Source: Candidatus Desulfovibrio gallistercoris (GTDB lineage Bacteria > Desulfobacterota > Desulfovibrionia > Desulfovibrionales > Desulfovibrionaceae). From it: a DNA stretch of 64,000 bases. Position 1 is the stretch's first letter. Every line of letters starts with the position of its first letter. A model generated the notes under the pieces. It had not been told where the DNA came from. It saw nothing but the letters and a program-made list of their open reading frames with translations, and did no database searches. The DNA lies in assembly GCA_019118745.1 (NCBI GenBank), contig DWYJ01000106.1:1-64000 (forward strand). The letters run 5' to 3'. Shown one piece after another: positions 1,455 to 31,040 of this stretch. A program made the translations under genes and the position numbers.

Positions 1455-1465
1455 CTTCAGCGGAT

Positions 1466-1670: not shown

Positions 1671-1698
1671 CTTGTCCACCCGCTGCTTCACGCAAAAA

Positions 1699-1719
1699 GT
1701 GGGGACAAAATGGGGACAA
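1699..1719. repeat. Paired decamer arm sites inside the left end
   Basis: GTGGGGACAA at 1699 and ATGGGGACAA at 1710 are 11 bp apart, matching the pairs at 1434/1445 and 37551/37562. They sit just upstream of the integrase ribosome binding site (GGGAG at 1726-1730), so protein bound here could also repress int. Confidence 0.5.
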
Positions 1720-1738
1720 CTTTTCGGGAGCGCACACG

Positions 1739-2950
1739 ATGGGCTATCAATGGCATCAGCTGGAAGAAGGCATCCGGGTACGAGAACATCCCACACGCAA
1801 GCACGGCATCAAGCCTGACCTTTATTTTGCCATCCGCTATCAGAAGGACGGCAAGCGGCAGGAAGAGTCGCTGGGCTGGGCATCGCAGGGCATGACCCTG
1901 CACAAGGCCCGTCTGGCGCTGGCTCAGCTTCGGGAAGCGGCGCGCACCGGCAATGGAGCCACACGACTCCGGGAACAGCGGCAGGAAGCCCTGGCCGCGC
2001 GCAAGGCCGAGCAGGAAGCCGCCCTGCAGGCGGCACAAAAAAACCGGACCTTCTCCCAGTTCTGGGAAGAATTCTACTGGCCCTCAACCCGGCAACGCAA
2101 GTCTCCCGGAGCTCTGCGGAGCGAGCAGGCTATCTACAAACACTGGCTGCAACCGCATATCGGCGGGATGCTGCTGCAGGACATTCTTCCCGGCCACGTC
2201 CAGACGGTTGTCGATGCGATCCTGGCACGGGGCAGAGCTCCCCGCACGGCACAGTATGCTCTTGCCGTCATTTCGCAGGTCTGGAATGCCGCCTACGGGC
2301 ACGGCCTTGTTGCTGGAGAAAATCCCGTCCGGCGGGTCAAGAAACCGCGAACGGATAACCGCCGCATGCGCTTTCTCTCCCGTCAGGAAGCTTTTTCTCT
2401 GCTGGAAACCATCAGACCCCGTTCTCGAGATTTGTACGACACCTGCCTGCTGTCGCTTTTCTGCGGGTTGCGCGCTGGAGAAATCTACGCGTTGCGTTGG
2501 GGTGACATCGGTTTCGAGGGAGGAGAGATCTTTATCCGCGATCCCAAGAACGGGTACAATCGTTATGCCTACATGACCGCTGAGGTTCGTGCCATGCTGC
2601 GCCGGCGCTTCAGCGGTCAGACCAGAAATGAGCTTGTCTTTCCGGCAAACACCGGAAGCAGGCGCGTTCAGGCCTCCAAACTCTTCGAGCGCTGCGTCAA
2701 TGAGCTTGGCCTCAATGACGGCTATACGGATCGGCGGCAGCGTATCGTCTTTCACAGCCTGCGCCACACGTTTGCCAGCTGGCATGTGGAACAGGGCACC
2801 CCTCTTTATCAGGTCGGCGCTTTGCTTGGCCATCGTTCCCCCCAGATGACGCAGCGCTACAGCCACCTCTCTCCTGACGCCATACGCAAGGCAGCCCTGA
2901 CGCTGGAGGGATCGCTTCCTGTCGAGGGAGCACAGCCGCTGGAAGGATAA
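1739..2950 (+). CDS. int: Tyrosine site-specific integrase of the island
   Basis: This 403-aa integrase catalyses recombination between the island and the tRNA-Thr 3' end. The N-terminal part (about residues 1-60) resembles an arm-binding DUF4102-like domain. A SAM-like core-binding domain covers about 100-210, and the catalytic domain follows with Arg in GLRAGEI (about 244), Lys in DPKNG, HSLRHT (about 340) and the nucleophile Tyr in RYSHL (about 372). The frame is open back to 1445, through the att repeat, but ATG 1739 has a good ribosome binding site (GGGAG) and gives the usual family length. It sits just inside the left repeat, as expected for tRNA-targeted islands, and a terminator follows. 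All catalytic residues are present, so the enzyme looks functional. Confidence 0.95.
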   Translation: MGYQWHQLEEGIRVREHPTRKHGIKPDLYFAIRYQKDGKRQEESLGWASQGMTLHKARLALAQLREAARTGNGATRLREQRQEALAARKAEQEAALQAAQKNRTFSQFWEEFYWPSTRQRKSPGALRSEQAIYKHWLQPHIGGMLLQDILPGHVQTVVDAILARGRAPRTAQYALAVISQVWNAAYGHGLVAGENPVRRVKKPRTDNRRMRFLSRQEAFSLLETIRPRSRDLYDTCLLSLFCGLRAGEIYALRWGDIGFEGGEIFIRDPKNGYNRYAYMTAEVRAMLRRRFSGQTRNELVFPANTGSRRVQASKLFERCVNELGLNDGYTDRRQRIVFHSLRHTFASWHVEQGTPLYQVGALLGHRSPQMTQRYSHLSPDAIRKAALTLEGSLPVEGAQPLEG

Positions 2951-6290: not shown

Positions 6291-6349
6291 TTAATAAATC
6301 AAAGGCGAGATTAAAAAGCCCTTCAAAAGTGCAATAAAAGAGTTTTTTG

Positions 6350-7147
6350 ATGGATTTGACGGAAAAGAATAAATATTTATCTCGATTCGGATTCAGCTTT
6401 GAACGTGGAGGCGCTCATACGTCCCGCACAATGATGCTTGAGGACTTAAGAGTTTTACTGTCTCATGTTGAACGGTCTGATGCTGAAAAGGATTCCTACC
6501 TTCAAGCAATTATGGATGAGAACTGTCTTGGTAAGCGTTCTGCTAAAACCCGTATGCTCACATATCGGCATCTTGTCGAACTCTACTCGCTTGATAAAAA
6601 CAATGTTCTTTTTCGGACACTTCTCTATTTTTGGCATCGCGATGTTGATGGTCAACCATTATTAGCAATGCTTTGTGTATATGCTCGTGATACCATATTT
6701 CGATCTTCCGCACAGTTTATTTTGAAATGTCCAGAAGGTGCAGTTATTCAACGAGAATCTCTTGAAGACTATATCGACGCTCAGGAGCCTGGACGATTTA
6801 GCAATGCCACGTTGAAATCAACAGCGCAAAATATAAATTCAACATGGACCAAATCGGGACACCTTCAGGGACGTTCGAAAAAGGTACGATCTTGCGCACG
6901 TGCAACCGCCGGAAGTGTCGCTTATGCGTTGTTCCTTGGTTACCTTACCGGGGTACGTGGAAATTTGCTTTTTCAAACAGAGTATATCAAAATTCTTGAT
7001 TGTTCCTGCATGAAAGCTGTAGAACTTGCCGAAGAAGCCTCCTGCAAGGGGTGGATTAGCGTTAAGCGTGTTGGCGATGTTATTGAGGTGCTTTTTCCAA
7101 ATCTTATCAAGCAAGAAGAAATGGAGAGGCTTTGTGAGCAGAATTAA
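6350..7147 (+). CDS. brxA: BREX protein BrxA
   Basis: This 265-aa protein has the layout of BrxA (DUF1819): an N-terminal segment (YLSRFGFSFERGGAHTSRTMM), a middle region with FRTLLYFWHRDVDGQPLLAMLC, and an ending with a winged-helix-like RVGDVIEVLFP. BrxA is the first gene of type I BREX operons and is a small DNA-binding protein. ATG 6350 is preceded by an in-frame TTG at 6347; no strong Shine-Dalgarno is seen. Transcription of the operon probably starts in the AT-rich 60 bp after the broken toxin gene. Its 3' end overlaps brxB by 14 bp. Confidence 0.9.
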   Translation: MDLTEKNKYLSRFGFSFERGGAHTSRTMMLEDLRVLLSHVERSDAEKDSYLQAIMDENCLGKRSAKTRMLTYRHLVELYSLDKNNVLFRTLLYFWHRDVDGQPLLAMLCVYARDTIFRSSAQFILKCPEGAVIQRESLEDYIDAQEPGRFSNATLKSTAQNINSTWTKSGHLQGRSKKVRSCARATAGSVAYALFLGYLTGVRGNLLFQTEYIKILDCSCMKAVELAEEASCKGWISVKRVGDVIEVLFPNLIKQEEMERLCEQN

Positions 7148-7685
7148 ACGGTTGTTACAATCCTATAACAAATATATTTCTGTCCCCTGGCGAGATGATG
7201 TCGCGGCGGCGCAGCGTGTAATCTTCTGTATCTATAAAGAAAACGAAGAACGCAGTTTGAGAGCCAAGCTCGATGAATTTGAACTTGTTACACGACAAGC
7301 GGGGCACGACTGGGCTCTTTTTGATTTGACGGATACTTTTGCAACCTGGCTCACCTCGCAAAGATATGCTAAGAGCTATTTCCAGCAGCCGCACTTGCTC
7401 CGCTCGCTCCTGCCGAAATACCTTGTATTTCTTTCTCAGCAGTTCGAAATATTTCTTCAGGAAACTGACAGCTCTCCTAATAGCGTTGTGGCAATGAATG
7501 GCGTCGGTTCGATTTTTGGATTTTTGAAGGTGAAAGAAGTCGTTGACAAACTGGCCCCGCTGGTCACAGGGCGACTGCTGGTCTTTTTCCCCGGCAGCTA
7601 TGAAAATAACAACTATCGGCTCCTGGATGGCTATGATGGATGGAACTATCTCGCCGTGCCGATCTCTGCGGATAAGGATTATTGA
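7134..7685 (+). CDS. brxB: BREX protein BrxB
   Basis: This 183-aa protein matches BrxB (DUF1788) in length and in features such as PWRDDVAAAQRVIFCIY near the start and VTGRLLVFFPGSYENNNYRLLDG near the end. BrxB is required in type I BREX and is thought to work in the complex with PglX and BrxC. The GTG start at 7134 has GGAG upstream and overlaps the end of brxA, indicating translational coupling. The frame is open back to 7026, but that part is the shadow of brxA. The brxC frame follows directly. Confidence 0.9.
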   Translation: MSRIKRLLQSYNKYISVPWRDDVAAAQRVIFCIYKENEERSLRAKLDEFELVTRQAGHDWALFDLTDTFATWLTSQRYAKSYFQQPHLLRSLLPKYLVFLSQQFEIFLQETDSSPNSVVAMNGVGSIFGFLKVKEVVDKLAPLVTGRLLVFFPGSYENNNYRLLDGYDGWNYLAVPISADKDY

Positions 7686-7696
7686 ACGAGGACGCT

Positions 7697-10600
7697 ATGA
7701 TGACGAATCGCGATATTTACCAGAAGGACCCGGCCACCCGTAAACTGGTCAATGAGGGGGTGGCGAACGTCAACGACGATACCAGCGATCAGGCATTGAA
7801 CGTCCTTCGCTATGAACTGGAAACCTTTGTATGCGATGGGCAATATGAAAAAGGTATGTCACATATCCTTGAGACATACCTCAAAAATATCGACCAGGCA
7901 CAACAGCCCGCAGTCTGGGTAAGCGGATTTTATGGTTCCGGCAAATCTCATCTTGTCAAGATGCTGCGTGCCCTTTGGGTTGATACGGTTTTTGCGGACG
8001 GTGCTACGGCGCGTGGCATTGCCAACTTGCCACAAGGCATCCGGGACAGTCTTAAAGAGCTGAGTACGCAGGCCAAACGGCACGGCGGGCTTCACGCCGC
8101 GTCCGGCACATTGGGAGCCGGCGCAAGCGGCAGCGTCCGATTGGCACTTTTGGGTATTATTTTCAAATCTGCGGGACTGCCAGAGCAATATCCGGTTGCC
8201 CGCTTTGTTATGTGGCTCAAACGCGAGGGCATTTATGACCAGGTTCGTTCTTCTGTGGAGCAGAATGGTTGTGACTGGGATGAAGAACTGGACAATTTTT
8301 ATGTGGCGGAGAGTCTTCATAGAGCACTTGTTCAGACCAAGCCCAAGCTATTTTCTTCTGCTGAATCCTGTGTCACGACGTTGAATAATCTGTATCCTTA
8401 TGTGGAGGATGTTTCCAGCGATGATATGCTCAAGGCGATTCAGCAGGCCCTGACAAAAGATGGGAAGTTCCCGCTGACCTTGGTGGTACTCGATGAGGTA
8501 CAACAGTATATCGGAGAAGATAGTCAGCGCTCTATTGCTGTTCAGGAGGCTGTGGAAGCCTGCTGCAAGAATATTGGCGGCAAATTGCTTTTCATCGGCA
8601 CTGGCCAGACAGCAGTAACCGGAACCAGTAATCTAAAGAAACTTGAGGGGCGTTTCACTATCCGGGTGGAACTTTCCGATGCAGATGTGGATGCTGTTAT
8701 TCGCCAGGTTATTCTGGCCAAGAAGCCGGAAGCCAAAATGCCCATTGAACAGATAATGCAATCCAACCTGGGCGAAATTTCCCGGCATCTGGCGGGCACA
8801 ACCATTGGACACCGACAGGATGACATATCCTACTTTCCCCAGGATTATCCCATTCTGCCGGTACGTCGTCGTTTTTGGGAAAACACGCTGCGGGTTTTGG
8901 ATCAGACAGGCACGGACAGTCAGCTCCGCAATCAGCTCAGCATGATCCACAAGGTCATTCAGACAAATTTGAATGAACCTCTTGGACATGTTGTTGCGGC
9001 CGACTATCTCTATTTTGACTCCGCCGACAAATTGCTCCAGTCCAGAATGGTGCCGCGCAAAGTCTACGAAATGACCATGCGCTGGCATAACGGCTCTGAA
9101 GAGGAGCAGCTTATGGCTCGCGCCTGTGGTCTGGTCTTTCTTATCAATAAGCTCAAAAGCCAGAACAATGAAATAGGTATTCGCGCCACTGTTGATACCC
9201 TGGCGGATCTGCTGATCGAGGACTTGCCTCATGGCAGTGGTAATTTACGGAGCAAGCTCCCCTCTCTTCTGAAAAAATGCTCTCTACTGATGATGGTGGG
9301 AGATGAATATCGCATTCAGACAGAAGAAAGTACTGCCTGGAATGACGAATTTGCGAGCCAGAAGGCGGCGTTGTCCAACGAGGCTCATCGTATTGAAGCC
9401 GAACGTGATGACCGCATTCGTAAACGCTTTGGCGAGATGGTGCGCAAGCTTTCACTGATTCAGGGAGACTCAAAGGTCTCTCGCGACATTTCCCTTGTGT
9501 TTGACGCGCAGCTTCCCTCCGACGCCGAGCGGCGTATTTGCGTCTGGGTGCGCGATGGCTGGAGTGTTGATGAAAACTCTGTGCGGGCCGATGCGCGGCA
9601 GGCGGGCAATCAGTCGCCAACAGTTTTTGTATTCATCCCCCGGCGTTCGGCCGACGACCTTCGCCATTACCTCATTGAGTACAAGGCCGCCAGTGCGACG
9701 CTGGATAAACGTGGCGTGCCCAATACCCCGGAAGGCAGCGAAGCCCGCGCAGCCATGGAAACCACTAAGCAGAACGCGGAAGGCAAAATTCGTGATCTGC
9801 TTGGAGACGCCTTCTCCGGGGCCCGTGTGTTTCAGGGTGGCGGCAATGAGATTCCCGGCAACGATCTTCAGGATATGGTGCTTGATGCCGCCAATAACGC
9901 GCTGCAACGGCTTTATCCTCAGTTCCGTATGGCTGATCATGCGGGGTGGTCCAAGGTTTATGAAAAGTCTCAGAAAGGCGCTCCCGATGCGCTCAAAGCT
10001 GTGGGCGATGACGGCGAGGCCGCGAAAAACCCAGTGTGCAAAGCAATTCTTGGCTCTATTGCCGGCGGGAAAAAGGGGGTGGACATCCGCGCGCAGTTTG
10101 AATCTGCCCCTTATGGGTGGTCGCGTGACGCTGTGGATGGCGGCTTGCAAGTGCTGCTGGTTGCCGGACTGCTCAGAGCGCATGATGAGCGCGGACAAGC
10201 CGTAATCCCCAGGGAGCTGGAGCGTAAAGCTATCGGCAAGGCGCTGTTCAAAGTGGAGTCCGCGACCGTCTCAACGGCGCAACGTATCCAGATCCGCAAA
10301 TTGTTGCAGAAGGCCGACATTGCAGCCAGGCAGGGTGAAGAGTTGGGAAGCGTGCCCCCCTTTCTGCAATACATGATGGACCTTGCCGATAAGGCTGGCG
10401 GCGAGGCTCCAAAACCGGCCCGACCGGATACTACCTCCCTCGACGATATTCGTCTTGCCTCGGGTAATGAACAACTACTTGCCCTCTTCAACCGGCGGGA
10501 AGAGCTGGGAAGCAACATTGATGCCTGGACCGCACTTGGCCGGCGCATTGCCGAGCGCTGGCCCGGCTGGCACGATGTAACATGCCTGATGGCTCACGCC

Positions 10601-11137
10601 GCAAACCTTTCATCCGCAGAAACTCTACAGGCACAGGTAGAGACGATTAAACAGCAGCGTCTACTGATTGAAGAACCAGACCCGGTCGCTCCCTTGCTTG
10701 CCAGTCTGACACAGCTGCTACGCGAAGAACTGAATCGGCTTCAAAACGACTATTCCGCGCGCCATGAAGAAGGGATGAAACGTCTGTCGGTTGATGCAAA
10801 CTGGCAACAACTGACTCCTGAACAACGTCATCAGCTTTTATCCGAGCAGTCTTTGCATGATGCTGCCCGCCCGAAAGTCGAGGTGCAGTCCGCCAGCGAT
10901 GTGCTGACAACGCTGGACCGCTGCAATCTCTCGATGTTTGCCGATCGCGTGGCGGCCATGCCCGCCCGCTTTGACAACGTCGTCCGCGAAGCCGCTGAAC
11001 TGTGTGAACCTCAGACGCAGTTTATTCAGATCCCTCGCCGCATGCTGAAAACAGATGAAGATATTTCTGCCTGGCTTGAGGAGGTTGAACAGCGGCTTAA
11101 GACAGCGTTGAAAAACGGCCCTATAATGATTCATTAG
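7697..11137 (+). CDS. brxC: BREX P-loop ATPase BrxC
   Basis: This 1146-aa ATPase is the large P-loop component of BREX. The Walker A motif is SGFYGSGKSHLVKML (about residue 75-90) and the likely Walker B is LTLVVLDEVQQYIGED (about 258-273). The rest is long and helical, with a C-terminal part rich in Glu/Gln. The double ATG at 7697/7700 follows GAGG; an upstream TTG at 7682 is also in frame. BrxC is needed for both methylation and restriction in characterised systems. The gene ends 56 bp before the embedded ATPase-PIN pair, the only sizeable gap inside the operon apart from the pglZ junction, consistent with an insertion point. Confidence 0.93.
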   Translation: MMTNRDIYQKDPATRKLVNEGVANVNDDTSDQALNVLRYELETFVCDGQYEKGMSHILETYLKNIDQAQQPAVWVSGFYGSGKSHLVKMLRALWVDTVFADGATARGIANLPQGIRDSLKELSTQAKRHGGLHAASGTLGAGASGSVRLALLGIIFKSAGLPEQYPVARFVMWLKREGIYDQVRSSVEQNGCDWDEELDNFYVAESLHRALVQTKPKLFSSAESCVTTLNNLYPYVEDVSSDDMLKAIQQALTKDGKFPLTLVVLDEVQQYIGEDSQRSIAVQEAVEACCKNIGGKLLFIGTGQTAVTGTSNLKKLEGRFTIRVELSDADVDAVIRQVILAKKPEAKMPIEQIMQSNLGEISRHLAGTTIGHRQDDISYFPQDYPILPVRRRFWENTLRVLDQTGTDSQLRNQLSMIHKVIQTNLNEPLGHVVAADYLYFDSADKLLQSRMVPRKVYEMTMRWHNGSEEEQLMARACGLVFLINKLKSQNNEIGIRATVDTLADLLIEDLPHGSGNLRSKLPSLLKKCSLLMMVGDEYRIQTEESTAWNDEFASQKAALSNEAHRIEAERDDRIRKRFGEMVRKLSLIQGDSKVSRDISLVFDAQLPSDAERRICVWVRDGWSVDENSVRADARQAGNQSPTVFVFIPRRSADDLRHYLIEYKAASATLDKRGVPNTPEGSEARAAMETTKQNAEGKIRDLLGDAFSGARVFQGGGNEIPGNDLQDMVLDAANNALQRLYPQFRMADHAGWSKVYEKSQKGAPDALKAVGDDGEAAKNPVCKAILGSIAGGKKGVDIRAQFESAPYGWSRDAVDGGLQVLLVAGLLRAHDERGQAVIPRELERKAIGKALFKVESATVSTAQRIQIRKLLQKADIAARQGEELGSVPPFLQYMMDLADKAGGEAPKPARPDTTSLDDIRLASGNEQLLALFNRREELGSNIDAWTALGRRIAERWPGWHDVTCLMAHAANLSSAETLQAQVETIKQQRLLIEEPDPVAPLLASLTQLLREELNRLQNDYSARHEEGMKRLSVDANWQQLTPEQRHQLLSEQSLHDAARPKVEVQSASDVLTTLDRCNLSMFADRVAAMPARFDNVVREAAELCEPQTQFIQIPRRMLKTDEDISAWLEEVEQRLKTALKNGPIMIH

Positions 11138-11193
11138 GGTTCCTTGCCATTGAGAAAACACCTTAAACCGAAAAGCTCCGGGGAGAAGGTTTC

Positions 11194-12501
11194 ATGCTCT
11201 CGTCATTGGTCATTAAAAATTTCAAGAGTTATGTTGAAGCCGTTATCCCTCTGGCTTCCATGACATTTCTCATAGGGCCCAATGCTTCGGGCAAGAGTAA
11301 TGCTCTGGAGGCCTTTCGGCTTTTGAGCTGGCTGGCAAGGGGCATGCGTCTGGATGATATCGAGCGCAATATTCAGAACGGTGATGCCCATATCCGTGGC
11401 CGTGCGGTTGATCTTTTCAAGGATGCGACTGCGGGGTTGACTATCGGTTGCCGTCTTGACGAGCCTGAACTCAGCTGGAATGAGCTGCAGCTGGAAATCG
11501 GGATGTCGAATGCCCAGCTTGTTCTGGCGGGTGAAGTCATCAACGGTTCTTCGGAAGTCCTGCCCCTCTATCGTGTGGAGGGCCTGCAATCAGAGCATAC
11601 CAATGTGCTCAACGTCATGTACAATAACTTTAAGCGCGGTAGATATAAGCCTCATGTTTCATGCACCAATCAGCAGGCCATATTTTACCAGCTGGAAACT
11701 CCGGGAAGATTTTTCCAGAAGGACACGCGTGCGCAAAAAGAGATTCCGGCAGTAGTCCAGTGCTTTCGGGAACAGTTGCGCAATATTGTTTTCCTCGACC
11801 CCAATCCGGCAGCCATGCGGGGCTATTCTTTTGCTGGGGACAACGAACTGAAGGAAGACGGCTCAAATCTTTCCAGCGTTCTCGCAAAGCTCTGTCAGCA
11901 GCCCCAGATGAAGCAAACCTTACTGGATTTTATCCGTTCTTTGCCAGAGCAGGATATCACTGATATTTCCTTTATTACCACAGAACGCAACGACGTTATG
12001 GTGCGTTTGCACGAATCTTTTGGCAGTAAGGCGCAAAAAATAGACGCGCCTTTGCTGTCTGACGGAACGTTACGAGTCCTCTCAGTGGGGGCTGTGCTGC
12101 TCAGTGCGCCGGAAAAGGCGCTGGTCGTCATTGAAGAAGTGGACAACGGCATCCATCCGAGTCGTGCCGATTTTCTGGTAAGACAGATTCAGAACATCGC
12201 TTCCCGCCGTGGCTTGCGTGTGCTTATCTCCTCCCATAATCCGGCTTTGCTGGATGCTGTCCCCGATACGGCCCTGGGGGACGTGCTGTGCTGCTATAGA
12301 AATCCTGAAGATGGGGACAGCCGCATTGTACGCATGGCGGACATGAAGCGTTTTCCTGAGTTGATGGCGCAGGGCTCTCTGGGGCAGCTGATGACCAGCA
12401 ACAGGCTGGAAAAATTTCTGAAAGATACAACGTCAGAGGAAGATCGCAAACAGGCGGCACTTTCCTGGCTGGAGCGGCTGAGCAGGGAGACGGAGGCATG
12501 A
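11194..12501 (+). CDS. AAA15/AAA_21-type ATPase embedded in the BREX operon
   Basis: This 435-aa protein is an ABC/SMC-like single-polypeptide ATPase. Walker A is GPNASGKSNALEAF (about residue 28-41). An ABC-like signature region LLSDGTLRVLSVGAVLL lies near 285-301, followed by Walker B ALVVIEEVDNGIHPSR (about 308-323) and an H-loop-like ISSHNPALLD. It resembles the ATPase half of OLD-, PARIS- and Septu-type defence systems but carries no TOPRIM domain. It overlaps the PIN gene by ATGA (12498-12501), so the two are surely co-translated. It is not a standard BREX component. Likely role (inference): sensor ATPase controlling the PIN nuclease. Confidence 0.85.
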   Translation: MLSSLVIKNFKSYVEAVIPLASMTFLIGPNASGKSNALEAFRLLSWLARGMRLDDIERNIQNGDAHIRGRAVDLFKDATAGLTIGCRLDEPELSWNELQLEIGMSNAQLVLAGEVINGSSEVLPLYRVEGLQSEHTNVLNVMYNNFKRGRYKPHVSCTNQQAIFYQLETPGRFFQKDTRAQKEIPAVVQCFREQLRNIVFLDPNPAAMRGYSFAGDNELKEDGSNLSSVLAKLCQQPQMKQTLLDFIRSLPEQDITDISFITTERNDVMVRLHESFGSKAQKIDAPLLSDGTLRVLSVGAVLLSAPEKALVVIEEVDNGIHPSRADFLVRQIQNIASRRGLRVLISSHNPALLDAVPDTALGDVLCCYRNPEDGDSRIVRMADMKRFPELMAQGSLGQLMTSNRLEKFLKDTTSEEDRKQAALSWLERLSRETEA

Positions 12502-12953
12502 GCATCTGTTTGCTTGACACCTCGGTATTTGTCGAATTCCTGAACGTGCCCCATATGAATGCACAGCATGCAGCGATTCATAATGAGCTGAAACAAAAGA
12601 TTCAGGACGGAGAATTCCTGTTTCTGCCTATGGCAACCATTCTGGAAACCGGCAATCACATTGCCCAGAATGGTGATGGAAAACAGCGCAGAAAGGTTGC
12701 TGATTTTTTTGTGGAACAGGTGCAGCTTGCTCTGGATGGAGAGTCGCCCTTTACGCCCATAGCTTTCCCGACGCAGGACGCCATGCGGGAATGGCTTGCT
12801 GCATTCCCCGATGTTGCCATGCGGGGACAGGGGCTTGGGGATTTGTCCATTGTTCATGACTGGGAACGGATGTGTGCGCAGCACCCAGGGCATCGCGTCT
12901 ATATCTGGTCCCTTGACCATCATCTTGCTTCGCATGACAGGAGACCGTCCTAA
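12498..12953 (+). CDS. PIN-domain nuclease partner of the embedded ATPase
   Basis: This 151-aa protein has the PIN-like acidic pattern: LLDTSVFVEFLN at the start (first Asp about residue 7), MATILETGNH (Glu about 47), GLGDLSIVHDW (Asp about 114) and IWSLDHHL (Asp about 139). PIN proteins are metal-dependent RNases (less often DNases). Its start overlaps the ATPase stop and its TAA overlaps the pglX start (TAATG), so it is locked into the operon. No VapB-like antitoxin is present; the ATPase probably restrains it instead. Substrate unknown. Confidence 0.82.
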   Translation: MSICLLDTSVFVEFLNVPHMNAQHAAIHNELKQKIQDGEFLFLPMATILETGNHIAQNGDGKQRRKVADFFVEQVQLALDGESPFTPIAFPTQDAMREWLAAFPDVAMRGQGLGDLSIVHDWERMCAQHPGHRVYIWSLDHHLASHDRRPS

Positions 12954-15900
12954 TGCCCACACTTGATAAAACGCTTCGTTCTCAGCTGGAACGCGACATC
13001 AAAAAGGCTCGCAGTATCGCGGAGACCGCTGCCCGCGCCGCTCTGGAGCAGCTGGGCGTAGGTGAAGCCGCGCCTTTCGAGTATCTGAGCGAAGGTGAAC
13101 GGGTCTTGCGTCGTAAATTACGGGCACATGGACGGCAGCTCGGAGACCCACTCCATAGCGACAAGGTGCAAGCGCTGGATCTGTTGATCGAAGAAGTGGC
13201 CTATGAGCACTGGCACAGGATGCTTTTTGCCCGCTTCCTGGCCGAAAACAACCTCCTCATGTATCCCGATCCGGATGAGCCCGTGTCAATAACACTGGAA
13301 GAATGTGACGAGCTGGCCGCAGATGAGGGCGCGGCCAACGGTTGGGAGCTGGCCGCCCGCTTTGCCGCCCGTATGCTGCCGCAGATTTTTCGCCCGGATT
13401 CGCCGGTGTTCCAACTGGTGCTGCCGCCTGAACATCAGCAAAAGCTGGAGCATCTGGTAAGCGGTCTGCCGCAAGAGGTGTTTCACACATCGGACAGTCT
13501 GGGCTGGGTATATCAATATTGGCAGGCGGACAACAAGGAACGCATCAACAAATCGGGGGGTAAGATCGGTGCGCGAGAACTGCCCGCCGTTACCCAGCTC
13601 TTTACCGAGCCGTATATGGTCAGCTTCCTTCTGGACAATACTCTGGGAGCCTGGTGGGCGACAAAACGGCTCACCGAGCATGACCTCTGTAATGCCGCAA
13701 GCGAGGAAGACTTGCGGCAAAAGGCCGCCATTCCCGGCGTGCCTCTGACCTATCTGCGCTTTGTCCGGCTGGAGGACGGCGCATGGACGCCGGCGGCGGG
13801 AACATTTGAGGACTGGCCCGAAACGTTGTCCCGGTTCAAACTGCTGGATCCCTGTTGCGGATCCGGTCACTTTCTGGTGGCCGCGCTGCATATGCTGGCG
13901 CCCATGCGTATGGTACTCGATGGACTGTCAGCCAAGGAGGCAGTTCATGCCGTATTGCGGGAAAACCTGCACGGCCTGGAGCTGGATCAACGCTGCGTCA
14001 AGCTGGCGGCCTTTGCGCTGGCCTTTGCCGCTTGGACATATCGCATGCCCGACACTCCCACAGCGACCTTTGGATTTGCCAATTCCGGCGGTGTGGGCTT
14101 CGGGCAGGGCCCCTTTGCGGCCGGGCCTCTGGGCCATATGCCGCTGCCGGAGCTCAATGTGGCCTGCTCCGGCCTGCCGGTGACAGCGGACAAGGCCCAG
14201 TGGACAGCGCTGGCCCAGCCGCATACGGCGCTGCGCAACGCTCTTGATCTGTTGTACGACGAATTTCAAAACGCCCCGGTGCTGGGGAGTCTGCTGGCTC
14301 CTGCGGAAGGTATGGCGGCCAATATTGCCCACAGAGATATGACGCCGCTCCTGCGGCAGGCCCTAGCTGCCGAAAAGGGGGAACAGCACGACACCCAACT
14401 GGAGATAGCCGTCATCGCCCAGGGGCTGGCCAGAGCTGTCGCCCTGCTGGCAGAAAGGTATACTCTGGTTATGACCAATGTGCCGTATCTGGCACGGGGC
14501 AAACAGGTGGAGACCTTGCGTGCCTTCTGCGAAACCCACTACCCGGAAGCAAAAAACGACCTTGCCACGGTGTTTCTGGAACGCAGCCTGAAACTGTGCG
14601 CCAAGGGGGGCACGGCCGCCATTGTCCTGCCGCAGAACTGGCTGTTTCTGACAACCTACAAGAAATTTCGGGAAAAGCTGCTCAAACGGGATACCTGGCA
14701 TCTGCTGGCACGCTTGGGGGCTGGCGCGTTTGAAACGATATCGGGAGAAGTAGTTAAAGCGATTTTATTGGCTATTTCTCGTGGAGAGGTCCGTCCCTCC
14801 GGCGGTTTATTGGGAAATAGCAAATCCGCGCATATTTTGCACGGGCTGGACGTGGCCTCTGCCGCGACAGCACAGGCCAAGGCAGACGCCTTGCGCGTTG
14901 CACCTCTCCAAGGCATCGAGCAGGCAAAGCAATTGGAAAATCCGGATGCGCGGGTGGGATTGGAAGAAACTATAGGGAATTTACTAGCAGCGTATGCAAA
15001 TTCTTATCAAGGGATCTCGCCCGCTGATTTGCCTCGGTTTGGGCGAGGATTTTGGGAAAAAAGTTACCGTACAGCGGCGTGGTCATTCTGGCAGAGTACG
15101 TCCTCTTTCACAAGATTTTTTGCAGGAAGACAATTAAGTTTATGGTTGTCTCAAGTGCTTCTCAAAGTTGAGAATGAAGGAACTGCCTATATTCGTGGAG
15201 AAGAATCTTGGGGTAATCAAGGTGTTGTTATCAGTGCTATGCGAGAATTACCAGCAACTCTTGGTAGCGGGGAACCTTCTGATACCAATGTAGCCATCAT
15301 AGTTCCTCATAACCCCGCGCACCTGCCCGCTATCTGGTGCTTCTGCTCTTCGCCAGAATACAATGAAGCTGTACGGCAAATCGATCAAAGCTTGAAAGTC
15401 ACCAATGCCACTCTGGTCAAAGTCCCCTTTGAGCTGGAACGCTGGCAAAAGGTGGCGGATGAAAACTATCCCCACGGTCTGCCCAGGCCGTACAGCGATG
15501 ATCCTACCCAATGGATTTTTCACGGCCACCCCTGCGGTTCCGTGATCTGGGATGAAAGTACAAAGAGGACGGTTGACGGCCCGCTACGCACGGATGCCGG
15601 CGTCTTGCAGGTAGCGGTGGCGCGGCTGCTGGGCTATCGCTGGCCCGCCGAACTGGATACCGGCATGGAGCTTGCCGACGAGCAGCGGGACTGGGTGAAA
15701 CGGTGCGATGCGTTGCTGTCATTTGCCGATGCTGACGGCATTGTCTGTCTGCCTCCTGTCCGGGGGGAGGCCGCTGCAAGCGAACGCCTGCTGAATCTGC
15801 TGGCCGCCGCCTATGGCGACGCCTGGTCCAACGATACTCTGGCGGCGCTCCTCGCAGACGCCGGTCATGCGGGCAAAACGCTGGAAACCTGGCTGCGGGA

Positions 15901-16456
15901 AAAGTTCTTTGCCCAGCATTGCAAACTGTTCCAGAACCGCCCGTTCATCTGGCACATCTGGGATGGCCTGCGGGACGGTTTCGCCGCCTTGGTCAATTAT
16001 CACAAACTGGATCACAAAAATCTGGAAACGCTCATTTACACCTATCTTGGCGACTGGATTTTGCGCCAGAAGCAGGACCTTGACGCCGGTATTGACGGCG
16101 CGCAGGAACGACTGGACGCCGCCGAGGTCCTCCAGAAAAGGCTGGAGCTTATTCTCGCAGGCGAAACTCCTTATGATATTTTTGTGCGCTGGAAGCCGCT
16201 GGAGCAACAGCCTCTCGGCTGGGAACCGGATCTTGACGACGGCGTGCGCCTCAATATTCGCCCCTTCCTCAGCGTGCCAGATGTCGGCAAAAAGGGGGCC
16301 GGAATCCTGCGTGACAAACCCAATATCAACTGGAACAAGGATCGGGGCAAGGACGTGGAAGCGTCCCCCTGGTATCACCTCTTTAACGGTGACCGCATTA
16401 ACGACCATCATCTGACCCTGGCTGAAAAACAAGCCGCTCGGGAGGCTGCCGAATGA
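12953..16456 (+). CDS. pglX: BREX adenine-specific DNA methyltransferase PglX
   Basis: This 1167-aa protein methylates adenine in a non-palindromic BREX site to mark self DNA. Motif I is DPCCGSGHFLVAAL (about residue 299) and the catalytic motif IV is NVPY (about 508), the variant usual for PglX. The C-terminal third would hold the target-recognition region. DNA from about 14950 to 15330 (residues about 667-792) is clearly AT-richer than the rest, suggesting a swapped recognition domain. The start overlaps the PIN stop and the end overlaps the next gene by ATGA. Type I PglX proteins are about 1200 aa, so the length is normal. Confidence 0.93.
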   Translation: MPTLDKTLRSQLERDIKKARSIAETAARAALEQLGVGEAAPFEYLSEGERVLRRKLRAHGRQLGDPLHSDKVQALDLLIEEVAYEHWHRMLFARFLAENNLLMYPDPDEPVSITLEECDELAADEGAANGWELAARFAARMLPQIFRPDSPVFQLVLPPEHQQKLEHLVSGLPQEVFHTSDSLGWVYQYWQADNKERINKSGGKIGARELPAVTQLFTEPYMVSFLLDNTLGAWWATKRLTEHDLCNAASEEDLRQKAAIPGVPLTYLRFVRLEDGAWTPAAGTFEDWPETLSRFKLLDPCCGSGHFLVAALHMLAPMRMVLDGLSAKEAVHAVLRENLHGLELDQRCVKLAAFALAFAAWTYRMPDTPTATFGFANSGGVGFGQGPFAAGPLGHMPLPELNVACSGLPVTADKAQWTALAQPHTALRNALDLLYDEFQNAPVLGSLLAPAEGMAANIAHRDMTPLLRQALAAEKGEQHDTQLEIAVIAQGLARAVALLAERYTLVMTNVPYLARGKQVETLRAFCETHYPEAKNDLATVFLERSLKLCAKGGTAAIVLPQNWLFLTTYKKFREKLLKRDTWHLLARLGAGAFETISGEVVKAILLAISRGEVRPSGGLLGNSKSAHILHGLDVASAATAQAKADALRVAPLQGIEQAKQLENPDARVGLEETIGNLLAAYANSYQGISPADLPRFGRGFWEKSYRTAAWSFWQSTSSFTRFFAGRQLSLWLSQVLLKVENEGTAYIRGEESWGNQGVVISAMRELPATLGSGEPSDTNVAIIVPHNPAHLPAIWCFCSSPEYNEAVRQIDQSLKVTNATLVKVPFELERWQKVADENYPHGLPRPYSDDPTQWIFHGHPCGSVIWDESTKRTVDGPLRTDAGVLQVAVARLLGYRWPAELDTGMELADEQRDWVKRCDALLSFADADGIVCLPPVRGEAAASERLLNLLAAAYGDAWSNDTLAALLADAGHAGKTLETWLREKFFAQHCKLFQNRPFIWHIWDGLRDGFAALVNYHKLDHKNLETLIYTYLGDWILRQKQDLDAGIDGAQERLDAAEVLQKRLELILAGETPYDIFVRWKPLEQQPLGWEPDLDDGVRLNIRPFLSVPDVGKKGAGILRDKPNINWNKDRGKDVEASPWYHLFNGDRINDHHLTLAEKQAAREAAE

Positions 16457-19269
16457 GTTCCTCTTACAAAGGGATGCGCTGGCTGAAATGTGACCTGCAC
16501 ATGCATACTCCTGCGGATGCGCGGCACTGGAAAGGTGATTCCTCCGCAAGCGTAGAGGAGGCAGCAAAAAAGTTTGCGGAAGCCTGCCATAAAAAGTGGT
16601 TGGATGTGGTGGGTATTACCGACCATAATTTCCTTAGCAAAGATTTTATACCTCACCTACAGGATGCATTTGATGATATTGAGCGAGAATATCAGCATAG
16701 GATTACATTGTTCCCTGGATTTGAGTTCGAGGCAGATATCGGCAAGGGAATACATGTCATTTGTCTTTTTGAACCGGGAACAGCGACTGAGGAAATAGAC
16801 CATATTTTAACAGAATGTGGAGTTCGCAGACCGCGAATAGAAAATGGCCTGTTAGCTAAATCAACAAAACGCCTACCTGATATTTTGGACATAGTACAAA
16901 GACCAAAACAAGATGGATTATGGCGTGGAATCGTTATTGTTCCCCACATATTTAATAATGGTCTTTTTGATAATAAGCGAACTAACGATTGGCTTCAGCA
17001 GGAGGAATTTCGCAACCCGGATCTTTTGGCTGTCGAAGTTCACAAACCTGTAAGTTTCATGAGTGAAAACTTGCAAAAACTATTTCGATCAGGAGAAGAT
17101 TGCAACCCCGGCTGGAAGCGTATTCGTCCTATTGCCACGCTTATGTCTTCGGACAATAAAATGTTGGATAAAGATGATGCACACAATAAACCTGAGCCCA
17201 ACAGTATCGGCTATCGATACTCATGGATCAAAATGTCTGCGCCCTCTATCGAATCCCTTCGCCAGGCATTCCTTGATCATGAATCACGTATCGTGTTGCC
17301 GGAAGACGTTTCGGAGGAGATACATCCAGAACAGCGTAATCGCCATGCGTACATCAAATCCATCTCTATCAACAATGCGGCTTTTCTAGCTGATCAGGAA
17401 GTCCATTTTTCCCCAAACATGAACTGCATCATTGGTGGGCGGGGCAGTGGAAAATCTACCTTGCTTGAATATCTGCGGATTATTCTGGGTAAGGACTCAC
17501 AGAAAGAGCTAGATGCTGAAACACAGAAGCGAATTGCGCGCGCAAAAAGCACGCTGACGCCTCAAACGACAATCAAAATCTGCTGGGTTACTGCGGAGGG
17601 GTCAGAAGATACCATTGTCTGGCAAAATAATGAACGCACCGTGCAAGGGCGCGAGTTGATCGATTCGGAAACCTTTTTCAGAGGGCTGCCGCTTAAATTT
17701 TATAGCCAGCATCAGCTTAATCATTTGACCGAGTCAAAAGTTGAGGAGGGGAATCTACGTCAGGCCCAGCGGATCTTGGGGCTGATAGACGGGTTCAGGC
17801 AAAGTGAACTGAATGAACTGGAAACACAGGAAAACCTGCATAATCAGAAAATTCAGGACGCTTTTGCCTTTCTACGAAAGGCCGATAGCCTCAGAAAGGA
17901 GGTCAAGCGACTCCAGCAGGAATATCAAGAACTTGACCGTCAATGGAAAGCTCGCAGCGAGATTCAGGAGGATGCCCGGCGACATCAGCACCTCAAAGGG
18001 GAGGAGCGTTATCTCAAGAGTCTTGCAGAAATATCAGATGCGCTGTTCAACGACATCGTTTCTCCGGCTGAACAGATCGCGACTTCCCATGTTCCTTTTC
18101 AGCTTACAGATTCCCCCCATGCTGATTGGTTCAAACAATTTGATGATAAGGTAAAGAACGCTAAAATTACGCTGGCTCGCGCTATACAGGAGGCTGTCGA
18201 GAGTTTCGAAACAACTCTTGAAGAGCTCAAAAGCAAAGATCCGATATGGTCTGCCATCCAGGAAGACCTTAACCAAGCAGATTCCAAGTTTCATGAAGCG
18301 TGCGCAGCTAAAGGCTTGACACCTGACGATGTAGGCCGCTTACAGGAAATTGATCAAGCACGTATCATGAAACAACAGGAAATCAATAAAATAGCGGCTG
18401 AGATTCGTTGGAATGAAGATGCTGCTGGTGACGTGAATCAGCATATGCAGCAGTTGTATCAAATATGGCGAGCACAATTTCAAAAACGTCTAGAAGCTGC
18501 CAAGAGCGCCAATGAACTTGCCGTTCTTGATGGAAATAAACGGTTTATTGATGTTTCTATAGCTTATCAACAGGACTATAAGAGTTTTGCTGAGCTATGG
18601 CAGAGCTTCGCGCCTTCTGATGGAAGAACACGGCTTGGGCGAATGTGGGAGACTTACGGAAAGGCTCTCTATGATCTTTACAAAGAGCAGACTGAAGAGA
18701 AATCTCCCTGGCTAGTGCTGAAAGAGCGCTTACAGGCGAGAGAAAACTTAATAATTTCTGATGTTGAAATCAACTGTCAAGATATTCTCAAATATATTGA
18801 TGAAAACATGGAACGTTGGAAAACTCTACGCTGTTCCCGAGTGCAAGATTCTGCAGATATTACGCTATTCCGATCTGACGGCTCAAAGGCAGGCAGTATA
18901 GCCGATGGTACACTTTCGGATGGACAACGGAATACCGCTGCTCTCGCACTGCTGCTCGCCCAGGAGGGGGGGCCGCTGGTAATAGATCAGCCTGAAGATG
19001 AACTGGATTCCAACTTTGTGTTCCAGGAGCTGATTCCGATGTTGCGTAAAGTCAAAGCGAAGCGTCAGCTTATCTTGGCTACGCACAACGCCAATATTCC
19101 GGTAAATGGAGATGCTGAACTTGTTTACGCCTTTGAAGCTCGCGAGAGTTCCGGGAGACCTCTTGCTTATGGGGGGCTGGATCAGGCATCAGTAACAAAA
19201 GCTGTCCTCGATATCATGGAAGGTTCGGAAGAAGCTTTCCGGCGCAGACGTGAAAAGTACCATTTTTGA
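16453..19269 (+). CDS. PHP-phosphoesterase / SMC-like ATPase (TrlF-like) embedded in BREX
   Basis: This 938-aa fusion starts with a PHP domain: DLHMHTPADA (about residue 14), VGITDHN (about 54) and GFEFEAD (about 93) supply the metal-binding His and Asp/Glu residues. After about residue 300 comes an SMC/RecN-like ATPase: Walker A GGRGSGKSTLLEYL (about 328), a long coiled coil (about 450-760), signature LSDGQRNTAALALLLA and Walker B GGPLVIDQPEDELD (about 840), then ILATHNANIPV. This matches what NCBI calls TrlF-family proteins. It overlaps pglX by 4 bp. A DNA-end or nucleotide-processing nuclease is likely. It is AT-richer than brxC and pglX and is not a core BREX gene. Confidence 0.82.
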   Translation: MSSSYKGMRWLKCDLHMHTPADARHWKGDSSASVEEAAKKFAEACHKKWLDVVGITDHNFLSKDFIPHLQDAFDDIEREYQHRITLFPGFEFEADIGKGIHVICLFEPGTATEEIDHILTECGVRRPRIENGLLAKSTKRLPDILDIVQRPKQDGLWRGIVIVPHIFNNGLFDNKRTNDWLQQEEFRNPDLLAVEVHKPVSFMSENLQKLFRSGEDCNPGWKRIRPIATLMSSDNKMLDKDDAHNKPEPNSIGYRYSWIKMSAPSIESLRQAFLDHESRIVLPEDVSEEIHPEQRNRHAYIKSISINNAAFLADQEVHFSPNMNCIIGGRGSGKSTLLEYLRIILGKDSQKELDAETQKRIARAKSTLTPQTTIKICWVTAEGSEDTIVWQNNERTVQGRELIDSETFFRGLPLKFYSQHQLNHLTESKVEEGNLRQAQRILGLIDGFRQSELNELETQENLHNQKIQDAFAFLRKADSLRKEVKRLQQEYQELDRQWKARSEIQEDARRHQHLKGEERYLKSLAEISDALFNDIVSPAEQIATSHVPFQLTDSPHADWFKQFDDKVKNAKITLARAIQEAVESFETTLEELKSKDPIWSAIQEDLNQADSKFHEACAAKGLTPDDVGRLQEIDQARIMKQQEINKIAAEIRWNEDAAGDVNQHMQQLYQIWRAQFQKRLEAAKSANELAVLDGNKRFIDVSIAYQQDYKSFAELWQSFAPSDGRTRLGRMWETYGKALYDLYKEQTEEKSPWLVLKERLQARENLIISDVEINCQDILKYIDENMERWKTLRCSRVQDSADITLFRSDGSKAGSIADGTLSDGQRNTAALALLLAQEGGPLVIDQPEDELDSNFVFQELIPMLRKVKAKRQLILATHNANIPVNGDAELVYAFEARESSGRPLAYGGLDQASVTKAVLDIMEGSEEAFRRRREKYHF

Positions 19270-19365
19270 GGCGACAGATGATTGAAGCCAGAGTTCTTTC
19301 TGGCTTTTATACAGGCGACGCCATCCCAGGAAAACTGTATAAGACATTCAGAGGACGTAGTATGT

Positions 19366-21720
19366 ATGCGCGTGCTTGATAATCTTCTGCAAGCGGTTCG
19401 TGGCGCCGCTGTTTTTAACCCGGAAGTACAGGTTGCTCCCGCCTGTATTTTGTGGCCGGATCGCGATCGTCAATGGGAAGCTGTCATGCCTACTTTGCAG
19501 GGGGCGCTGCCTGAACTCCTGATCCTTGGCGACTATGTTCCAGAGAAGCATACGGGGCCTGCCATCTGGTTACGGTGCGTCATTGCCGGCAAGATAGAGG
19601 ATGTTGCGCTGCCCGCAGAGCGGACGCCGATTCTCTACCTGCCGGGCGTCAGCCGTCAGGAACTGCGTGCTGTTGAAAGTTGCCCGGAGCTTTTGAAACC
19701 GCTTGCGGAATTGCAATATCGGGGTGTCTTTTGGTCACAAGTCAATGCAAAAGACTGGACAATTCGATCGTATCTGAAATCTGATCAGGGCGGTCTTGGT
19801 CTGGATGTCGCTCAGGATAACGATACCAGACACGCCATGCAGCTGGCGCTGTACCGACTTCTTGATGAAGAGGCTTCTCTGCTCAAGGGCAAACGTCTGG
19901 ACAGAGATTACTTCAATACCCTGTTGACAGGGGGCGACCCGATTCGCGATCTCCTGCAATGGCTCGATCAGGGGGATAGTTTTCGGAACAGGCTGAGTGA
20001 GAACGAGTGGAAAGCCTTTGTTGCGATTTGTCTGTCTCAATTGGCTTTCAATCCTCAGGATGAAGGGATTCTGGCCGGAAGTATTCGCCTTGCCAACCAT
20101 GAAGGGCCGTGGCGTGCTGTGTGGGAGCGCTATAGGGAGGCTCCCCGGCGATATCCCAATATTCCGGCACAAATTGAAAAATGCCGTCCCCCCAGCGATA
20201 CGATGTTCTGGTATATGGAAGGCGGCTCTTTTGAAGGATGGCCTCAGTGGAATGACGAGCAGGAAAAGAGCCTTCGTCAGGATTTGATGGCCCTTGCCTG
20301 CATGCCCGCACACGAGGCAAGAGTCAAGATTAAGGAATTGGAAAAACGACACGGAAACAGACGAAACCTGGTCTGGGCCGAACTGGGGAGCGCTCCTCTG
20401 GCGTATGCCGTGGAGTACCTGGCCTGTCTTGCGGATACAACGCAGAAAAACCTGGCCGCAGGAACAGTGGATGACCTCACAGCAGGCTATTGCAGCTACG
20501 GATGGCAGGCGGATGACAGCGTGCTCCGGGCTTTGGCGCAAGTAGAAAATTCGGCCGATATTGATGCCGTTACGACAGCGATTCGAGCCCTTTATCTGCC
20601 GTGGGCGGAAGATTCGGCCCGATATCTTCAACAACTGGTGGATAATGCCTCGTATCCTGGCGGCACCTGCGAGACGGCAAAGGCCGTAGCTTTCACCTCG
20701 GGAGACTGCGTTTTTTTTGTTGACGGGCTTCGTTTTGATGCCGGGAAGCGGTTGCGCAGAGCCTTGGAGGCTGTCGGGCTGACAGTCTCCGAGGAACCCT
20801 TCTGGGCTGCCCTGCCCAGTGTAACGGCAACGGGTAAGGCGGCAGTCACCCCGGTACGGGACAGGATATGCGGACGAGAAGGCAGTCTGGATTTTGAACC
20901 GTCAGTGGCAGATACCGGACAATCATTGAAGGGCGGCTACCCCTTGAAAAAGTTACTGGACGACGCGGGGTGGTCCATTCTGGATCGTTCTGCTGTTGGC
21001 GATGGGCAGGGGAAAGCCTGGTGCGAATGTGGCGATATCGATCACGAAGGTCATAATCGAGGCTGGAAACTTGCAAAACATCTTGACGCCCTGATTGCCG
21101 AGATTGCAGCGCGAATCCGGGAGCTTGTGACAGCAGGCTGGAAGCGTATTCGCGTTGTGACGGATCATGGCTGGTTGCTGGTTCCCGGCGGCCTGCCAAA
21201 AACTGATCTTCCCGGAGCTCTGACAGATAATAGATGGGGTCGGTGCGCTGCCTTGAAAACAGGGGCCATGTCCGAAGAGCGACTATTCCCATGGTTCTGG
21301 AATTCCAGCCAGTATTTTGCCCTTGCTGACGGAGTAAGCTGCTTTAGAAAAGGGGAGGAGTACACCCACGGCGGACTGAGTCTGCAAGAGTGTCTGACCC
21401 TGCATTTGACGGTAACACCGGGTGAATCTGTCCACGTTGCCGCAGCTATCGAGCTGACCGATGTCGTATGGAAAGGGCTGCGCTGCACCGTTGCCGTAGA
21501 TGGCAACTATGCAGGTCTGTCGCTTGATATTCGCAGTCAGGCCGGTAATGCCCTGTCCAGTGTGGTCGTCAGCAGCAAGCCTCTTAAGGAAAACGGCACT
21601 GCCTCTGTTGTCGTCGAGGATGAGGAGCTGGAAGGGCAGGAGGCAACAGTTGTCTTGATTGATTCCCAGGGCATGCTGCTTGCGCAATATCCCACTGTGA
21701 TTGGTGGAGGTGACCGATGA
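19366..21720 (+). CDS. pglZ: BREX phosphatase-superfamily protein PglZ (type B)
   Basis: This 784-aa protein has the alkaline-phosphatase-like fold of PglZ, with FFVDGLRFDAGKRLRRAL (about residue 451) and VVTDHGWLLVPGG (about 597) as the likely metal-site segments. The N-terminus MRVLDNLLQAV...PACILWPDRDRQWE is the form seen in the type B PglZ variant of BREX-1 loci. ATG 19366 matches family N-termini; the frame is open to TTG 19282 but those codons look non-homologous, leaving about 95 bp between genes. PglZ is essential for BREX protection. The stop overlaps the brxL start. Confidence 0.88.
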   Translation: MRVLDNLLQAVRGAAVFNPEVQVAPACILWPDRDRQWEAVMPTLQGALPELLILGDYVPEKHTGPAIWLRCVIAGKIEDVALPAERTPILYLPGVSRQELRAVESCPELLKPLAELQYRGVFWSQVNAKDWTIRSYLKSDQGGLGLDVAQDNDTRHAMQLALYRLLDEEASLLKGKRLDRDYFNTLLTGGDPIRDLLQWLDQGDSFRNRLSENEWKAFVAICLSQLAFNPQDEGILAGSIRLANHEGPWRAVWERYREAPRRYPNIPAQIEKCRPPSDTMFWYMEGGSFEGWPQWNDEQEKSLRQDLMALACMPAHEARVKIKELEKRHGNRRNLVWAELGSAPLAYAVEYLACLADTTQKNLAAGTVDDLTAGYCSYGWQADDSVLRALAQVENSADIDAVTTAIRALYLPWAEDSARYLQQLVDNASYPGGTCETAKAVAFTSGDCVFFVDGLRFDAGKRLRRALEAVGLTVSEEPFWAALPSVTATGKAAVTPVRDRICGREGSLDFEPSVADTGQSLKGGYPLKKLLDDAGWSILDRSAVGDGQGKAWCECGDIDHEGHNRGWKLAKHLDALIAEIAARIRELVTAGWKRIRVVTDHGWLLVPGGLPKTDLPGALTDNRWGRCAALKTGAMSEERLFPWFWNSSQYFALADGVSCFRKGEEYTHGGLSLQECLTLHLTVTPGESVHVAAAIELTDVVWKGLRCTVAVDGNYAGLSLDIRSQAGNALSSVVVSSKPLKENGTASVVVEDEELEGQEATVVLIDSQGMLLAQYPTVIGGGDR

Positions 21721-31024: not shown

Positions 31025-31040
31025 GCTTTCTCTCACGTTT

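Follow-up and report, generated by a model that had tools for sequence, protein, structure and literature searches.

A 64,000-nucleotide stretch of DNA from Candidatus Desulfovibrio gallistercoris (contig DWYJ01000106.1), which we call the window, encodes an ATPase and a PIN-domain nuclease between the brxC and pglX genes of a bacteriophage exclusion (BREX) operon. Judged by its sequence matches, this pair is a known two-gene defence candidate of the PADLOC collection, PDC-M07, and not an unknown kind of system. What we add is evidence that the pair is a portable cartridge, common to BREX, type I restriction and Shango loci and also found alone on a 9-kb plasmid, and that it has a fixed place next to pglX, a changing linkage to BREX, and a slot whose cargo varies. 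Our reading, to which we assign a probability of about 0.6, is that this is a portable module in which the ATPase would sense infection and switch on the PIN protein, which would cut RNA and likely stop the infected cell.

The ATPase gene (11194..12501, 435 residues) and the PIN gene (12498..12953, 151 residues) both lie on the forward strand and start with ATG. The stop codon of the first and the start codon of the second overlap as ATGA (12498..12501), and the PIN stop overlaps the start of pglX, at 12953, as TAATG (12951..12955). The initial annotation of the window had described two open reading frames (ORFs) joined in this way, and we confirm its coordinates and letters. A purine-rich stretch that resembles a ribosome-binding site can also be read 5′ of each of the three starts, those of the ATPase, PIN and pglX genes. 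When the proteins are compared with PADLOC-DB 2.0.0, a library of known and candidate defence proteins, the PDC-M07A model covers residues 1-432 of the 435 in the ATPase (E 3.4e-195) and the PDC-M07B model residues 2-149 of the 151 in its partner (E 2.4e-58), which matches only PDC-M07B models there. Pfam finds AAA_21 (1e-29) and AAA_15 (4e-17) in the ATPase, and ATPase domains only, in agreement with the first description of it as an AAA15/AAA_21-type enzyme; we place it in the ABC/OLD-Rad50 type. The Pfam scan of the 151-residue PIN protein gave no match, and PF01850 (PIN) is precomputed on one of its 120 listed homologues (P0015). The nearest relatives come from Desulfovibrio: P0121, from an uncultured Desulfovibrio sp., is 98% identical, and locus L002, from Candidatus Desulfovibrio intestinigallinarum, shows 99% identity in the PIN match. 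The letters PDC stand for phage defence candidate, and PDC-M07 reportedly comes from the 'genetically embedded' screen of Payne et al. A literature search by the name PDC-M07 did not find the name among the matches listed, nor a tested function.

The two genes travel together. A pattern built from the PIN alignment was scanned against genome contigs and the best 80 of 276 relatives were kept, a sample that leans to close kin; with the loci from other searches this gave 85 PIN loci. In all 84 with a visible upstream gene the ATPase lies directly upstream on the same strand, therefore the pairing is more than chance. Three of the 84 are repeats (L001 and L092 are both the window, L082 is L002 and L083 is L042), and in one the ATPase gene is split (L030); the 85th, L033, begins inside the PIN gene, with its upstream side out of view. 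The two genes overlap by exactly 4 bases in 35 of the 84 pairs, and overlap or lie no more than 12 bp apart in 82, figures that use longest-ORF starts in the fetched loci and are thus inflated with regard to overlaps. Protein distances across the 13 BREX loci tell a similar story. The correlation between ATPase and PIN distances (Pearson 0.91, Spearman 0.72) compares with 0.70 and 0.36 for PIN and PglX, 0.75 and 0.46 for ATPase and PglX, 0.64 and 0.40 for ATPase and BrxC, 0.76 and 0.54 for PglX and BrxC, and 0.54 and 0.15 for PIN and BrxC (11 loci). By these distances the ATPase and the PIN protein form the tightest couple, and their contrast with the BREX genes is moderate.

Is there a third component? 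We clustered the ORFs of at least 80 residues that lie up to four ORFs away from the pair, across 78 loci other than the window, and found no fixed gene. The largest cluster among neighbours outside BREX is a loose, single-linkage group of 16 ORFs from 11 non-BREX loci, in mixed positions and on both strands, and the other clusters printed hold 3-5 ORFs; we therefore read these as no fixed third gene. Response_reg and HATPase_c matches among the neighbours suggest that the group of 16 consists of two-component proteins.

Both proteins keep the residues expected of working enzymes in a set of 79 pairs, which omits the duplicates and the truncated or split cases L003, L030 and L033. The ATPase carries a Walker A motif at about residues 28-36, the signature LSDGTLR (288-294), the Walker B/EE residues (313-315) and the H-loop histidine H348. 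Of these motif residues, the ones reported at 90% or more are retained by 75-79 of the 79 pairs. The acidic residues D7, E50, D115 and D140 of the PIN protein are kept in 78-79 of them. The predicted ATPase model (mean predicted local distance difference test score, pLDDT, 90.9) matches Rad50/SMC, PtuA and OLD folds in structure comparison; AriA is absent among the 50 matches listed. A sequence search of the PDB with the ATPase profile gave one weak match (OLD, 6p74, 2e-5), and the same search with the PIN profile gave none. The AlphaFold2 model of the PIN protein (pLDDT 95.9) finds mostly VapC toxins as its best PDB matches, with VapC20 at the top. Taken with the PDC-M07B match, the PF01850 assignment of P0015 and the four acidic residues, this bears out the earlier identification of a PIN nuclease. 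With its motifs intact, and with a constant PIN companion whose acidic residues are likewise retained, the ATPase is best read as a sensor and the PIN protein as its effector.

The initial annotation had proposed searching for the pair across and outside BREX loci, and the outcome divides its view of the module as linked to BREX. What stands is the fixed place before pglX. The pair was found within BREX in 15 distinct loci, namely the window, L002 and L003 (near-copies of the window), L007, L009, L010, L011, L012, L014, L016, L018, L021, L026, L033 and L087, which come from Thermodesulfobacteriota, Cloacimonadota, Pseudomonadota and, in the case of L016, a methanogenic archaeon; L012 carries no assignment. 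pglX is the next gene downstream in 15 of the 15, broken in L021 and L087, and brxC lies directly upstream in 10 of the 11 with a visible upstream side; in L018 a Schlafen-family gene comes between brxC and the pair. This protein (6883-8559 of L018; Schlafen AlbA_2 and HATPase_c_4) shares the gap with the pair, and thus modules can stack. The broken pglX of L021 and L087 consists of several ORFs interspersed with others, and both pair genes upstream are open.

What does not stand is specificity to BREX. The pair is in BREX in 13 of the 79 cases, and the remaining 66 have no BREX gene in their fetched flanks, meaning that none was found by comparison with the proteins of the window in up to 10 kb. 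Among these 66 the flank is shorter than 500 bp downstream in L054 and upstream in seven others, and is short on both sides in none. In the pair tree a single supported group of 30 rows contains every one of the 13 BREX pairs, together with 17 non-BREX pairs. The BREX label needs 8 changes on this tree, at least 6 of them being forced by supported branches, compared with 12.3 in shuffles, so the linkage is clustered and yet does not have a single origin; the tree is of a quick kind with long branches flagged, and does not distinguish gain from loss. For example, non-BREX pairs of Ectothiorhodospira are nested among BREX pairs of the Halomonadaceae, and methanogens have pairs with and without BREX. 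The module had also been described as translationally tied to BREX. We reject this as a key feature because, apart from the window and the near-copies L002 and L003, L033 alone has the TAATG, the other BREX loci showing apparent spacers of 1-101 bp.

A good place to see this mobility is the gap in which the pair sits. This BREX subtype has two cargo slots of varying content, slot 1 from brxC to pglX (11138..12952 in the window, filled by the pair) and slot 2 from pglX to pglZ. Sampling anchored on BrxC at E 1e-100 recovered 10 of 297 genomes of the class and 11 of 395 of the phylum, both figures including the window's own, and provided 18 other loci with a visible gap between brxC and pglX; a nineteenth, L103, ends inside brxC. 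In 8 of the 18 no gene is called in slot 1 (L084, L085, L088, L090, L091, L096, L098 and L100), in the sense of no ORF of at least 60 residues, and a small gene is possible in L096 and L100, where pglX has no certain start. The pair itself occupies slot 1 in one of the 18 (L087). HEC-02 A and B are found in four, L089 by PADLOC and three others (L094, L101 and L095) because they resemble L089; in L095 a Schlafen gene precedes them. Two more have a Schlafen gene alone (L093, L097), and the last three a PDDEXK_3 nuclease (L099), a phosphatase-like protein (L102) and a 179-residue protein without a Pfam match (L086, 5441-5980). L084, with its empty slot, and L086 share 96% DNA identity over most of brxC.

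One such difference can be seen at the level of DNA. L085 and L094 are 90% identical through brxC, the match runs to within one base of the end of the L085 stop codon, and identity resumes inside pglX, with HEC-02 in between in L094 only. On a BrxC tree of 28 loci, built with a simpler model, slot-1 content needs 11 changes over 5 states compared with 14.8 in shuffles, therefore the content changes repeatedly and yet is partly inherited with the core; for the pair by itself the count is 6, of which supported branches force 2. Slot 2 is varied too. It holds, among others, TrlF-like ATPases in the window, L086, L087 and L101, Septu PtuAB in L085, HEC-01 in L009 (PADLOC) and, by similarity, in L014, L090, L093 and L094, the A gene only of HEC-01 at the contig end in L091, AbiU in L084, a Schlafen-type protein in L095, and nothing in L088 and L098. 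In the window its occupant is a TrlF-family AAA-like ATPase (16453..19269, forward strand; NF045780 535.8 bits, cut-off 350; PADLOC Ppl 3e-55). In the same gap of L101 (8647-9146, reoriented) two short ORFs weakly resemble the ATPase (64 residues) and the PIN protein (102 residues), and are possibly the remains of a related pair.

Outside BREX the pair has other hosts. On plasmids of Photobacterium damselae (L105) and Vibrio campbellii (L106) the genes run hsdM, hsdS, ATPase, PIN, hsdR, and overlap from the first to the last. The gap between hsdS and hsdR is also the place of PrrC in its operon. A Serpens locus (L074) has hsdM, hsdS, the pair, a 353-residue gene and hsdR, L034 has a type I restriction endonuclease gene downstream of the pair, and L070 an hsdR-like gene upstream that clusters with those of L074 and L034. 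In a Desulfovibrio locus (L049) genes matching Shango SngA, SngB and SngC precede the pair and a DpdE-like protein follows, and a 9.1-kb mobilizable plasmid of Acinetobacter carries the pair without annotated restriction genes. The PIN protein was matched in 9 of 72,556 plasmid records, the weakest match, from Lactococcus (25% identity), also having an AAA ATPase gene directly upstream; none of 50,697 phage records matched it at E 1e-5. We also compared the 123 immediate neighbours of the 66 non-BREX pairs with 92 distant ORFs of the same loci as a control. At E 1e-10 the neighbours match 301 PADLOC families and the control 50. We claim no enrichment of defence genes from this, because the models are redundant, none of the families listed (25 on each side) has more than 3 members among the neighbours or 2 in the control, and the control also contains defence genes (PD-T4-6, IetA).

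How might such a module work? Like PtuA or AriA with their nucleases, the ATPase would keep the PIN protein docked or otherwise inactive. Some cue from the phage, such as an anti-restriction protein, a DNA structure or a replication protein, would change the ATP state of the ATPase, and the triggered PIN protein would cut tRNA or ribosomal RNA, by analogy with PtuAB and AriB, after which the infected cell would be stopped. In a BREX locus, BREX would thus be the first line and the ATPase-PIN module the second, and an abortive backup is the most likely role of the pair there. The pair is best read as an autonomous, ATPase-gated, probably RNA-cutting abortive module carried as cargo, with a logic like that of PARIS or PrrC. 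Since 66 of the 79 pairs have no BREX gene in their fetched flanks, the sensing would be built into the ATPase and the trigger would not require BREX.

A number of points weigh against this proposal. No tested member of the PDC-M07 family was found in the literature examined. In the best analogue, PARIS embedded in a Salmonella BREX locus, Ocr did not activate PARIS and the deletion of PARIS left methylation close to wild type, as given in the available text of PMC11341690; position alone is therefore no proof of functional coupling. Among 72 candidates of 322-1025 residues there was no true ATPase-PIN fusion, the one match (335 residues) being a broken metagenome ORF that we rejected, and because of this a physical complex of the two proteins is suggested by linkage alone. 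The distances of ATPase and PglX correlate about as well (0.75) as those of PglX and BrxC (0.76). Finally, the families listed around the 66 non-BREX pairs include few restriction genes and are otherwise two-component, transport and metabolic, and for this reason the pair may have a stress or other role.

The strongest rival holds that the pair is a guard like PrrC, silenced while it physically touches the BREX or type I enzyme and firing when a phage inhibitor disables that enzyme. We consider this unlikely overall. It still has to be taken seriously on account of the fixed slots, directly before pglX in all 15 distinct BREX loci that carry the pair and between hsdS and hsdR in type I operons. 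PrrC offers a precedent, as it is encoded within the type I operon of EcoprrI, which silences it until the phage peptide Stp sets it free (PMC3874165 and PMC2610378), and Ocr is reported to inhibit BREX (PMC7261183, in the part accessible). However, a guard has to account for the 66 pairs of 79 without a BREX gene nearby, type I genes being near at least three (L034, L070 and L074), for a PIN protein that tracks the evolution of BrxC loosely (Pearson 0.54), and for standalone copies, which would need another silencer. A more detailed version, which we regard as equally doubtful, sees in PDC-M07 a PIN-armed PrrC split over two genes. It would be an exchangeable suicide cartridge for dedicated slots of unrelated restriction machines (brxC/pglX and hsdS/hsdR), would guard these against anti-restriction proteins, and when triggered would cut the ribosomal sarcin-ricin loop or tRNA. 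If so, type I BREX operons are two-slot carriers in which the cargo is swapped and the core stays.

Less probable still is a toxin-antitoxin addiction cartridge, in which the PIN protein would act as a toxin of the VapC kind with the ATPase as antitoxin, mainly to the effect of stabilising the operon or island. The VapC fold, the tight ATPase-PIN overlaps and carriage on plasmids (9 of 72,556 records, the 9-kb mobilizable plasmid included) fit this, but no VapB-like gene fits between the overlapping genes, the ATPase has kept motifs that a pure antitoxin does not need, and its fold is that of ATPases with nuclease partners. Finally, it is very improbable that the pair is a true part of BREX on which this subtype depends for methylation or restriction, for although it is placed within the operon, sits close against pglX in several loci and fills a slot whose content is partly inherited with the core (11 compared with 14.8 changes; for the pair 6, only 2 of them forced), 17 of the 18 other BrxC-anchored loci do without it, 8 of these with no slot gene called, and most sampled copies are outside BREX.

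If our preferred reading of an autonomous, ATPase-gated module is correct, BREX and type I operons have a common cargo of ATPase-gated killers, and phages able to disarm restriction would run into another trap, itself interchangeable. It would also mean that a VapC-type nuclease has come under an ATPase controller instead of an antitoxin. The empty slot 1 in 8 of the 18 BREX loci provides a natural with/without design for separating the guarding of a host system from co-travel.

The operon that hosts the pair in the window has a complete type I BREX set, all on the forward strand, and is inferred from gene order and spacing. It consists of brxA (6347..7147; PADLOC BrxA 2e-108), brxB (7026..7685 as the longest ORF; PADLOC BrxB 2e-79), brxC (7682..11137; PADLOC BrxC E 0; NF033441 956 bits, cut-off 400), pglX, the BREX methyltransferase (12953..16456; PADLOC PglX E 0), a type B pglZ (19282..21720; NF033450 956 bits, cut-off 400) and brxL (21717..23762). 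The true brxB start is probably nearer 7134, since most homologues here have about 183 residues. A promoter-like site with a perfect TATAAT lies at 11099-11127, in the last bases of brxC 5′ of the ATPase gene; this is one site where 1.4 are expected in shuffles, and we make no claim of an internal promoter.

A 92-bp exact direct repeat surrounds this region, its left copy (1466..1557) being a likely left attachment site and its right copy (37584..37675, both on the forward strand) overlapping the 3′ part of a tRNA-Thr(CGT) gene on the reverse strand (37629-37704). Beside the left repeat is a tyrosine integrase (longest ORF 1445..2950, forward strand; PF00589 2e-27), whose true start is probably downstream of 1445 because the longest ORF overlaps the repeat. 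The BREX operon, the pair, TrlF and Dsr1 are thus likely to be on an integrative island of about 36.1 kb at tRNA-Thr(CGT), which would explain how the whole set of BREX and cargo can move. Dsr1 here is a SIR2 defence protein 3′ of brxL (24053-27673), which we take as a divergent member (NCBIfam Dsr1 1144.5 bits, cut-off 1400). Further along the island (30939-35128) an adjacent CbbQ/MoxR-like AAA ATPase, a DUF3150 protein and a CobT/VWA protein make up an ATPase-VWA module. Elsewhere in the window, a 1797-residue ORF on the reverse strand (55947-61340) has no Pfam match.

Among known systems the closest is PDC-M07, since both proteins match its A and B models nearly full length. The initial annotation had suggested a new BREX accessory. 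This is not borne out, because the pair is PDC-M07 and because modules of an OLD-ABC ATPase with a PIN endoRNase, an HNH nuclease or a restriction endonuclease, in or beside BREX and related loci, have already been published (Rakesh & Krishnan 2026, PMC12839542). The available text of that study counts 594 taxa for the PIN, HNH and restriction endonuclease partners pooled, and proposes such modules as backup suicidal effectors. Neither the architecture nor the backup proposal is therefore new, and as to novelty the pair largely corresponds to a BREX-associated module already described. We liken those modules to PDC-M07 on architecture and proposed role alone; the fixed slot and the type I restriction hosts are not described in the text available.

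The comparison with PARIS, Septu and OLD-type logic made at the outset holds for sequence and fold, but not for membership of the AriA or PtuA families. PARIS is likewise an ABC ATPase with a small nuclease, embedded in Salmonella BREX (PMC11341690, available text), and its nuclease AriB is described as cleaving tRNA (PMC12409363, in part). AriB is a TOPRIM protein whereas the partner here has a PIN/VapC fold, and the best AriA model (8.9e-29) is far below PDC-M07A (3.4e-195). PtuA of Septu and the retron PtuAB systems is among the closest solved folds of ATPases with nuclease partners, but NCBIfam PtuA (NF041760) scores only 25.7 bits against a cut-off of 500, so that the fold alone is common, and PtuB is an HNH nuclease. 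The accessible part of PMC11555353 reports that retron-Eco7 PtuAB lowers tRNA-Tyr, with growth arrest needing both parts, and that retron-Eco4 PtuAB does not lower tRNA. OLD nucleases carry a TOPRIM domain in the ATPase chain, while the 435-residue protein has ATPase domains only. After PDC-M07A the closest named ATPase models are HEC-01A (PADLOC, 2e-35) and MAD3 of MADS, the latter at 97.9 bits and far below the NCBIfam cut-off of 420. VapBC shares the PIN fold and the conserved acidic residues (best match VapC20), but its partner is a small VapB antitoxin in place of a 435-residue ATPase, and there is no room for an upstream vapB because the ATPase gene runs into the start of the PIN gene. 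PrrC differs in being a single chain that has a catalytic triad of its own; the pair has two chains and a PIN domain. As far as the available texts of PMC3874165 and PMC2610378 go, PrrC of EcoprrI is likewise an ABC ATPase with an RNase embedded in a type I operon, an embedding that is seen in relatives of the pair rather than in the window itself.

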